Position numbers and translations under genes: made by a program. Below are positions 625 through 16,976 of a stretch of 64,000 bases of DNA, in pieces. The notes beneath the pieces were generated by a model that was not told the DNA's origin, ran no database searches, and saw nothing but the letters and a program-made list of their open reading frames with translations. Position 1 is the first letter of the stretch. Each line of letters starts with the position of its first letter. Source of the stretch: Nitrososphaeria archaeon (GTDB lineage: Archaea > Thermoproteota > Nitrososphaeria > Conexivisphaerales > DTJL01). The DNA is taken from positions 24,001 to 88,000 of the forward strand of contig JARVJU010000003.1 in NCBI GenBank assembly GCA_029775965.1, given 5' to 3'.

Positions 625-778
625 TGGTAGCCCGGGAAGGATTCGAACCCTCGTCCCCAGGGTTCTCCTCTCACCAAGCAAGGTGAGTCTTAGCCCACTC
701 TTTAGGAGATCCAGAGCCTGGGATCCTTGGCCGCTAGATTCGGCGGTCTCTAACCATGATCACGACCTCGACCGGGCT
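625..778 (-). tRNA. tRNA-Gln(CUG) with two introns and encoded CCA
   Basis: Read on the minus strand, the 5' acceptor AGCCCGG (778-772) pairs with CCGGGCT (635-629), followed by discriminator A628 and CCA (627-625). The T arm is GAGGG-TTCGAAT-CCTTC. The anticodon stem CCAGG/CCTGG is separated by a 48-nt intron at 663-710. Its ends fit a bulge-helix-bulge: outer helix CCCAGG/CCTGGG, 3-nt bulges GGA and AAC, central helix CTCT/GGAG. Removing it gives loop CUCUGGC, anticodon CUG. About 30 extra nucleotides also lie between U8/C9 (771-770) and the D stem TCT/GGAT, suggesting a second, non-canonical intron near position 9/10. A second AGCCCGG copy lies directly upstream (785-779). GatD and GatE, which charge tRNA-Gln in archaea, are encoded 3 kb away. 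Confidence 0.82.
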
Positions 779-1193
779 CCGGGCTACCAAGCCTGCCTCA
801 GAGCAGGAGGTAATTAACTTAACTGATACACCGGTTTCTTATCTGTGTGACAAAGCGGCATTAGTCATCTTTACCAAACGTAATTTTTTTTCAAGTGGTT
901 GCCAACCAGAATAGATATTTTCATTAGGGTATTTCGTAACTCGCAAAGGCTCATTTTTACAGTATTGCGTTTCGTTAGGGGTTCAATTAAAGCTTGACCT
1001 TTTGGAATACTAGACTCCATACCTTAACTACGTATTTGCCAGGCTGGAATTGGCATGGGGTGCATCATAGCTAAAAGGTGAATACAGAGAGCTATGTTCA
1101 AGCTCGTAAAATACTATTCCACTACCTTGCTATGGCTGCAAATAGTGCATTATTATTTATCTACCTGCTACATGCCAGCTGTGCAAGGATAGT
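779..1193. other. intergenic, no gene seen
   Basis: Apart from the duplicated acceptor 7-mer next to the tRNA, I see no coding pattern. A TATA-like TTATTTAT at about 1150 precedes the MFS gene at 1194. Confidence 0.5.
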
Positions 1194-3638: not shown

Positions 3639-3685
3639 TTAGTCACTGAAAGTTATTTATCCCCATGTTTTGCAATCAAAGCCAT

Positions 3686-4993
3686 ATGACGCTTGAGGGG
3701 TACAGAGGTAAACTTCTGGAAATACTTAGCAATGCAAAATGTTCCATAGGAGATGACATAGTAATAGTTACAGAGTCCAGAAGCATTGAAGGAGTTCTTA
3801 TGCCCAGATATCAGTATGCAGATGCCGAGCATCTAGTTCTAAAGCTGAAGAACGGGTATAATATTGGTATATCAGCTGATAGAATAAAGAAAATAAAACT
3901 GATAGGCAAGGGAAAGGAACCTTCTTTTGCTACACCGCCAAAACCAGAGCAGACTCCTGGTCTGCCAAAGGTGCTTATACTTGGTACAGGCGGTACAATA
4001 GCGAGCAGGATAGATTACAGAACTGGAGGCGTAAGGGCAGTTATTTCTTCAGAGGAGCTTTATCATCTTGTGCCTGAGCTTTCCTCCATAGCTGAGATAA
4101 CTACTGACATTCTTTTCAACATATACAGCGAAAATATGACAAGCGAGCACTGGTCCAAGATAGCTACAAGGGTTGCAGAAGCTATCAGAGCAGGGTATGA
4201 TGGTGTAGTTATAACCCACGGGACAGATACATTGCACTATACTTCTGCTGCTCTTACCTTTGCACTTGAATCCCCCCCTCTGCCGGTTGTATTGGTTGGT
4301 GCGCAGAGGTCTTCGGACAGGCCGTCATCTGACTCTGCAAGCAATCTTATAGGAGCTGTAAAATTTGCTGCAGAGTCAAGAGCGAAAGGAGTGTTCGTGG
4401 TTATGCATGATGGGCCAAGTGACGATGAACTTGCAGTGCACAGCGGCGTTAGAGTCAGAAAACTTCATACAAGCAGAAGGGATGCGTTCAAGTCTGTAAA
4501 CAGTGAACCAGTTGCTAGAGTGAAGAATGATAAGATAGAAATTCTGGAAGAGAGTATAAGAGAAGAAAAAGAGTCAGGTTCGTTCAGATTATTTGAGAAA
4601 TTTGATGATAGAGCAGCATTACTCAAAGTTTATCCGGGATTTCATCATTCAATAATAAAAGACCTTGTAGATAATGGCATAAGGGGCTTCATACTGGAAG
4701 GAACTGGGTTAGGGCATGCACCAAAGTCAAGCTATGGGGCTATAACTTATGCGATGAGCAAAGGTGCATTCGTAGGTATGACGAGCCAATGCATAAACGG
4801 AAGTGTAAGAATGACAGTATATGACACAGGAAGAGACCTGCTAAGCATAGGGGTTAAACCTCTTGGTGACATGTTGTCAGAGGTAGCTCTGGCAAAGCTC
4901 ATGTGGGCTTTGGGGAATTTTGATACATCAGAAGTTGGAGATATCATGACCAAGAACCTAAGAGGTGAGATGCAGGAGAGGAGGTTGCTTTGA
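3686..4993 (+). CDS. gatD: Glu-tRNA(Gln) amidotransferase subunit D (asparaginase-like)
   Basis: Supplies ammonia from glutamine or asparagine to GatE, which converts Glu-tRNA(Gln) to Gln-tRNA(Gln). About 435 residues: an N-terminal beta-barrel-like region (about 1-80), then the asparaginase fold with GTGGTIAS near residue 95, THGTDT near residue 180, and RKLHTSRRDAF, which carries the expected lysine. A TATA-like TTATTTAT lies at about 3653, too close to the ATG at 3665, so the second in-frame ATG at 3686 is preferred. The stop overlaps the TTG start of gatE, implying coupled translation of the heterodimer. Confidence 0.95.
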   Translation: MTLEGYRGKLLEILSNAKCSIGDDIVIVTESRSIEGVLMPRYQYADAEHLVLKLKNGYNIGISADRIKKIKLIGKGKEPSFATPPKPEQTPGLPKVLILGTGGTIASRIDYRTGGVRAVISSEELYHLVPELSSIAEITTDILFNIYSENMTSEHWSKIATRVAEAIRAGYDGVVITHGTDTLHYTSAALTFALESPPLPVVLVGAQRSSDRPSSDSASNLIGAVKFAAESRAKGVFVVMHDGPSDDELAVHSGVRVRKLHTSRRDAFKSVNSEPVARVKNDKIEILEESIREEKESGSFRLFEKFDDRAALLKVYPGFHHSIIKDLVDNGIRGFILEGTGLGHAPKSSYGAITYAMSKGAFVGMTSQCINGSVRMTVYDTGRDLLSIGVKPLGDMLSEVALAKLMWALGNFDTSEVGDIMTKNLRGEMQERRLL

Positions 4994-16900: not shown

Positions 16901-16976
16901 GGGCCCGTGGCCAAGCATGGATTAAGGCATCAGCCTCCGGAGCTGAAGATCGTGGGTTCAAATCCCACCGGGCCCG
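16901..16976 (+). tRNA. tRNA-Arg(CCG), intronless
   Basis: Acceptor GGGCCCG (16901-16907) pairs with CGGGCCC (16969-16975), discriminator G16976, no encoded CCA. The anticodon stem TCAGC/GCTGA encloses loop CTCCGGA with anticodon CCG, reading CGG. T arm GTGGG-TTCAAAT-CCCAC. 76 nt in total. Confidence 0.95.

Follow-up and report, generated by a model that had tools for sequence, protein, structure and literature searches.

A duplicated acceptor strand in the leader of archaeal tRNA genes with an intron at position 10/11: a probable surrogate strand for splicing

Non-canonical introns of precursor tRNAs, excised at a bulge-helix-bulge (BHB) motif, are known in Thermoproteales and Thaumarchaeota (PMC4090602, PMC8450103). 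The subject here is a tRNA-Gln(CUG) gene with two introns, encoded on the minus strand at positions 788-625 of the window, a stretch of 64,000 nucleotides (nt) that is part of contig C33 of the 1.7-Mb genome of a Nitrososphaeria archaeon. One intron interrupts the tRNA at position 10/11, and the 5' strand of the acceptor stem is present twice, once in the mature exon and once directly upstream in the leader. On purely computational evidence, this leader copy probably serves as a surrogate acceptor strand that makes the 10/11 intron spliceable. As in the described non-canonical introns, the intron is short, lies outside position 37/38, has a central helix with 3-nt bulges, and is found together with candidate genes for a two-subunit endonuclease and, as is often the case, with a canonical intron (PMC4090602, PMC8450103). 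Unlike these introns, the motif of the window type consumes nt 3-8 of the acceptor and is accompanied by a complementary leader strand.

In the split (trans-spliced) tRNAs of Nanoarchaeum, Caldivirga and Desulfurococcales, leader pairing likewise builds a splice-competent structure (PMC3218864, PMC4090602). Unlike split tRNA genes, however, the window gene is continuous, and its leader pairs with its own acceptor 3' strand and not with the trailer of another half. In Caldiarchaeum, too, the 5' part of a tRNA (a tandem tRNA-Thr fragment) is directly repeated ahead of a tRNA with an intron; there, 1.8 kb with an integrated element lie between the repeats (PMC3293823), whereas those of the window type are separated by 0-19 nt and apparently lie in one transcript. 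A duplicated acceptor strand, or such a role of the leader, was not found in the accessible parts of the open literature on archaeal non-canonical introns, split tRNAs and permuted tRNAs. An earlier note on this DNA had not seen the arrangement described either; since subscription papers lay outside the search, the novelty of the arrangement is provisional.

The gene consists of the following parts.

811 to 822, minus strand: probable TATA-like (box A) promoter element TTAAGTTAATTA, recognized by sequence about 30 nt upstream of copy 1; a weak match in the window
779 to 788, minus strand: leader copy 1, the putative surrogate acceptor strand GGTAGCCCGG, complementary to 635-626
769 to 778, minus strand: exon 1, the mature 5' exon AGCCCGGTCG, with the true acceptor 5' strand AGCCCGG followed by U8, C9 and G10
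739 to 768, minus strand: intron A, 30 nt, at position 10/11, with inner helix GGUC/GACC and the central-helix strand GCCG at 744-741
711 to 738, minus strand: exon 2, with the rest of the D-arm, the anticodon stem 5' strand and the anticodon CUG
663 to 710, minus strand: intron B, 48 nt, at the canonical position 37/38, with a BHB of central helix CUCU/GGAG and cuts GG^A and AA^C
625 to 662, minus strand: exon 3, with the anticodon stem 3' strand, variable loop, T-arm, acceptor 3' strand CCGGGCU (635-629), A73 and an encoded CCA

Direct reading of the sequence bore out the proposal of the earlier note that a tRNA-Gln(CUG) with two introns and a duplicated acceptor strand is encoded here. On the minus strand the leader (...GGT) is followed by AGCCCGG, AGCCCGG, TCG, a 30-nt insert, the remainder of the D-arm, the anticodon loop CTCTGG, a 48-nt insert and C38. 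The direct repeat AGCCCGG, the acceptor 5' strand, is present at 785-779 and 778-772 as the note had it, and the upstream stretch that it considered complementary to the 3' end, GGTAGCCCGG (788-779), indeed pairs over its full length with CCGGGCTACC (635-626). The 48-nt BHB intron lies exactly at the proposed 663-710. The second intron, estimated at about 30 nt, measures exactly 30 nt (768-739), and its site was corrected from 9/10 to 10/11. The two competing folds that the note expected of the precursor were supported as well. The exact ends of both introns were set by BHB geometry.

Excision of 768-739 and 710-663 yields a 76-nt tRNA-Gln with U8 and complete anticodon, T and acceptor stems; when paired by hand, its D-stem joins positions 10-13 with 22-25, two of the four pairs being G.U. 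The second copy (778-772) was assigned to the mature exon because only this copy precedes U8 and gives a normal D-stem, and the first copy (785-779) is apparently leader sequence. Exon 1 is identical in relatives. Intron A appears to be an archaeal non-canonical BHB tRNA intron, located outside 37/38 and restoring a normal cloverleaf upon removal. Its splice motif pairs CGGU (nt 5-8, 774-771) with GCCG (744-741), giving a central helix of 4 bp that is bordered on each side by a 3-nt bulge (CG^A and AA^U); as the outer helix is missing, the motif is a relaxed one. A split tRNA was ruled out, the exons being contiguous and in order within 788-625, and so was a permuted tRNA, the exon order 1-2-3 being normal. 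Standard scans with ARAGORN and Rfam gathering scores missed the gene and found only a tRNA-Arg at 16901 in the window, and a loose Rfam tRNA search matched only positions 9-63 of it (17.4 bits). About 3 kb away, at 3665-4993, lies an open reading frame (ORF) named by eye as GatD-like, GatD being a subunit of the archaeal Glu-tRNA(Gln) amidotransferase.

The tRNA regions of four genomes of the window's family, its own and three other members, and of one outgroup were scanned for the same arrangement. All 13 tRNA genes with an intron at positions 8-11 (Gln-CUG four times, Gln-UUG twice, Thr-GGU four times, Asn-GUU twice and Ser-UGA once) carry their own acceptor 5' strand a second time, 0-5 nt further upstream. 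Such a copy was found in about one of 119 other genes, which have introns further downstream (Glu, Arg-CCU, Ser, Leu) or none (Fisher 4e-17, without correction for relatedness). Two partial copies were set aside as due to chance (L141, offset by 6 nt and overlapping; L158, six of seven positions). The second tRNA-Gln of the window's genome, with anticodon UUG, has the same 10/11 intron and a near copy, GGCCCGG-A-AGCCCGG. Among the sister genes for Gln-UUG, those of genomes G000 and G001 have both intron and copy, whereas those of G002 and G003 have neither; the Ser and Asn genes of G005 also lack both. The single real copy among the other genes, in Gln-UUG of G005, is a clean 10-nt tandem duplication of positions 1-10 in a gene without intron. 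This locus (L075/L124/L286) may show the state that precedes the gain of an intron. In the same genomes, the tRNA-Val region with its flanks (L015, L182) looks identical in G000 and G003, which belong to different genera, unlike the other tRNA loci; this points to recent transfer or to cross-contamination of the assemblies.

Several archaeal classes and no fewer than five isotypes show the arrangement, which is therefore a rule tied to the intron position and not a single curiosity. A search pattern fixing only the Gln intron was applied to 84,980 genomes (one per species) and a slightly looser pattern to 400 genomes of the class. Species-wide matches were in Nitrososphaera, other Nitrososphaeraceae, Bathyarchaeota and other Thaumarchaeota, and the class-level pattern gave 50 Gln genes, spread over 47 genomes and 26 genera. 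Every intron-pattern Gln gene read had a stretch in its leader that is complementary to the 3' strand of the acceptor. After removal of identical sequences, 60 distinct Gln sequences found by their intron alone all had the copy: a complementary leader 6-mer was present strictly in 58 and with five of six positions in the other two, where shuffling expects 0.78 in 60. The 6-mers were GCCCGG (48), GTCCGG (8), GCTCGG (2), GCCCGT (1) and GCCCGA (1), and the spacer between the copies ranged from 0 to 19 nt. Intron-free Gln genes occur in 219 of the 400 class genomes, with GCCCGG at most 20 nt upstream in just 5 genomes. Other acceptors obey the rule as well, as in Glu-UUC and Ser-UGA of bathyarchaeal genomes (GCTCCGG, GCCGGGA). 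A Glu-type repeat pattern run over the phylum gave three tRNA matches, all with an intron after position 10; having been picked for the repeat, they are no test of the rule in that direction. The remaining two of the five matches (L312, L313) are not tRNAs. The isotypes with both an 8-11 intron and the copy are thus Gln, Thr, Asn, Ser and Glu, in Nitrososphaeria, Bathyarchaeia and others. Chance repetition was ruled out by the shuffling and by the recurrence in at least five isotypes, a pseudogene by the conservation of gene and splice sites in relatives, and a target duplication of a mobile element by the short spacers, without any element between the copies.

Further loci were observed alongside these. 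Gln-CUG genes L289 and L290 (G261 and G212, of one family) retain a leader copy of 9-10 bp, with about 19 nt as spacer, but their D-arm is interrupted by another intron and not by the 10/11 one; they are possibly a relic of intron loss. An archaeal-type tRNA-Gln with 10/11 intron and leader copy was also found in CP070692.1 (L225), a 4.7-Mb chromosome titled Deltaproteobacteria bacterium, which is probably a chimeric or mislabelled assembly or possibly a case of transfer.

The conserved property is the pairing of the leader copy with the acceptor 3' strand and not sequence identity. The acceptor that the copy matches differs between isotypes, and the GTCCGG and GCTCGG leaders replace G-C by G.U with retention of the helix. 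Furthermore, a compensatory change in G003 involves partners that both lie beyond the acceptor (GAUAGCCCGG with CCGGGCUAUC; GAU/AUC versus GGU/ACC in the window). A conserved alternative pairing with covariation, as looked for in a mutually exclusive fold switch of a leader, was thus found in the form of the G.U variants, one compensatory change and the predicted switch. The central helix CGGU/GCCG is conserved in 60 of 60 Gln genes, the invariance of GCCG being partly by construction because it was part of the search pattern. The inner helix of the intron was paired in 171 of 176 cells; a slide by +1 reduced this to 67 of 180, and one by -1 to 143 of 174.

Splice motif and acceptor stem have nt 5-8 in common in Gln and Glu, and nt 3-7 in Thr, Ser and Asn (registers by inspection). 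Since the motif occupies acceptor nt within 3-8, the acceptor stem is excluded while the motif forms. Folding models without coaxial stacking or tertiary contacts were applied to the 60 Gln precursors. With the native leader, the median predicted probability was 0.86 for the motif, 0.90 for the leader/3' strand helix and 0.00 for the mature acceptor. Removal of the copy changed these values to 0.01, 0.00 and 0.94, and shuffling of the leader to 0.17, 0.09 and 0.66, respectively; in a first set of 26 precursors the contrast was significant with Wilcoxon P=6e-7. In the window precursor the leader is predicted on the 3' strand with probability 1.00, replacing the mature stem. In attenuators and riboswitches, too, two strands compete for one partner and thereby decide a processing outcome. 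Unlike these, the window-type switch comes without indicated ligand or regulation and appears constitutive.

The findings together suggest the following course of maturation. Transcription would start just upstream of copy 1, and cutting of the 10/11 intron would require its 3' end (GCCG) to be paired with acceptor nt 5-8. Intron hairpin and splice motif would form on copy 2 as it emerges, and the newly made 3' acceptor strand would pair with copy 1 and so would not invade the motif. A two-subunit splicing endonuclease would then excise the intron and an RtcB-like ligase would join the exons, after which copy 2 would displace copy 1 on the 3' strand and ribonuclease P (RNase P) would remove the leader, making the strand exchange irreversible. 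A broader proposal is on balance favoured: a surrogate leader strand would be needed wherever the splice motif of an intron draws on the 5' strand of the acceptor, the leader would be an obligate and coevolving part of the splicing substrate, and maturation would include a leader/exon strand exchange. The window's genome encodes two splicing-endonuclease paralogs (PF01974; 93.4 and 64.2 bits); they are candidates for a two-subunit enzyme able to cut relaxed motifs, and by eye one keeps Tyr/His/Lys and the other apparently lacks His. The gene of one of them, endonuclease-like with 207 amino acids and apparently without the catalytic His (L310; G000 C11, at about 49.6 kb), overlaps the end of an RtcB-like tRNA-ligase ORF; RtcB and the endonuclease subunit types were assigned by visual inspection of sequence motifs. 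A nuclease and a ligase for tRNA splicing would thus be neighbours at this locus.

In related genes the centre of box A lies 28 nt upstream of copy 1, which matches its distance from nt 1 in intron-free genes (P=0.76); measured from copy 2, the distance differs from the intron-free spacing (P=5e-7). By this spacing, copy 1 very probably belongs to the transcript and stands where the gene formerly began. An ancestral promoter distance would also fit a by-product of intron gain, in which the intron came via tandem duplication of the 5' end of the gene and the copy is a passive relic. Indeed, the duplication in G005 Gln-UUG ends exactly at the intron site, and copy 1 of G002 Asn retains GCCGCCG, the acceptor of the intron-free G005 gene, next to a copy 2 that reads GCCGTCG. 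These observations together suggest that the 5'-strand duplication came with or before the intron, and tandem duplication may well be the origin of the copy, but not the reason for its retention. A relic should decay, whereas the copy persists across classes while its spacer drifts in length and sequence, and the changes seen preserve pairing. Moreover, no intron-bearing gene read has lost the copy, and a few intronless genes have it, an asymmetry which fits the copy being required for the intron. A passive relic is therefore considered rather unlikely.

It is distinctly unlikely that the leader copy serves another maturation step instead, such as blocking early cleavage by RNase P or RNase Z, protecting the 3' end, or quality control. 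In the window's family the pairing spans A73-C75 (10 bp), which would mask the CCA end, and in most models the leader still prevails over the mature stem once the intron is removed; however, in half of the Gln copies pairing is confined to nt 66-71 and leaves the CCA end uncovered, and the copy is absent from tRNAs whose D-arm intron lies at another site. A role in the order of processing is compatible with a surrogate strand and hard to separate from it. A reading in which the mature tRNA begins with copy 1, copy 2 being part of a longer intron, is highly improbable. The promoter spacing of copy 1 is indeed the normal one, and in the window this copy can pair along the entire 3' strand, but only copy 2 precedes U8 and the base completing the D-stem, copy 1 often does not pair at position 1 (CGCCCGG in Nitrososphaera) or has G.U variants, and the splice motif joins U8-N9-G10 of copy 2 to N11. 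Several observations weigh against the leader copy as a surrogate strand. In the window precursor the motif is not the minimum-energy fold (-73.1 versus -77.8 kcal/mol, 4.7 above the best), and the predicted motif is weak in some Thr, Ser and Asn cases. On secondary-structure energy alone, the mature stem exceeds 0.5 after splicing in just 8 of 60 models, the leader keeping the 3' strand in most, so that the hand-over needs something beyond the modelled energy; it may be aided by coaxial stacking and tertiary contacts and, for half of the Gln copies, by their pairing at just six positions, compared to seven in the mature stem. Same-isotype genes in related genomes are not independent, the independent count being at least five isotypes, and four or five Gln genes have the copy without a 10/11 intron.

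Interrupted tRNA genes with a spare stem strand occur in some soil and sediment archaea. The finding would account for introns at sites where they disrupt the acceptor stem, and would explain why standard finders miss such tRNAs, for which it offers a sequence rule. It poses the question how the mature stem displaces a perfect competitor, with RNase P or a chaperone as possible driver. It would add a role in splicing to the leader of precursor tRNAs, and it suggests a route to such introns, in which the 5' strand was duplicated first and the intron tolerated after.
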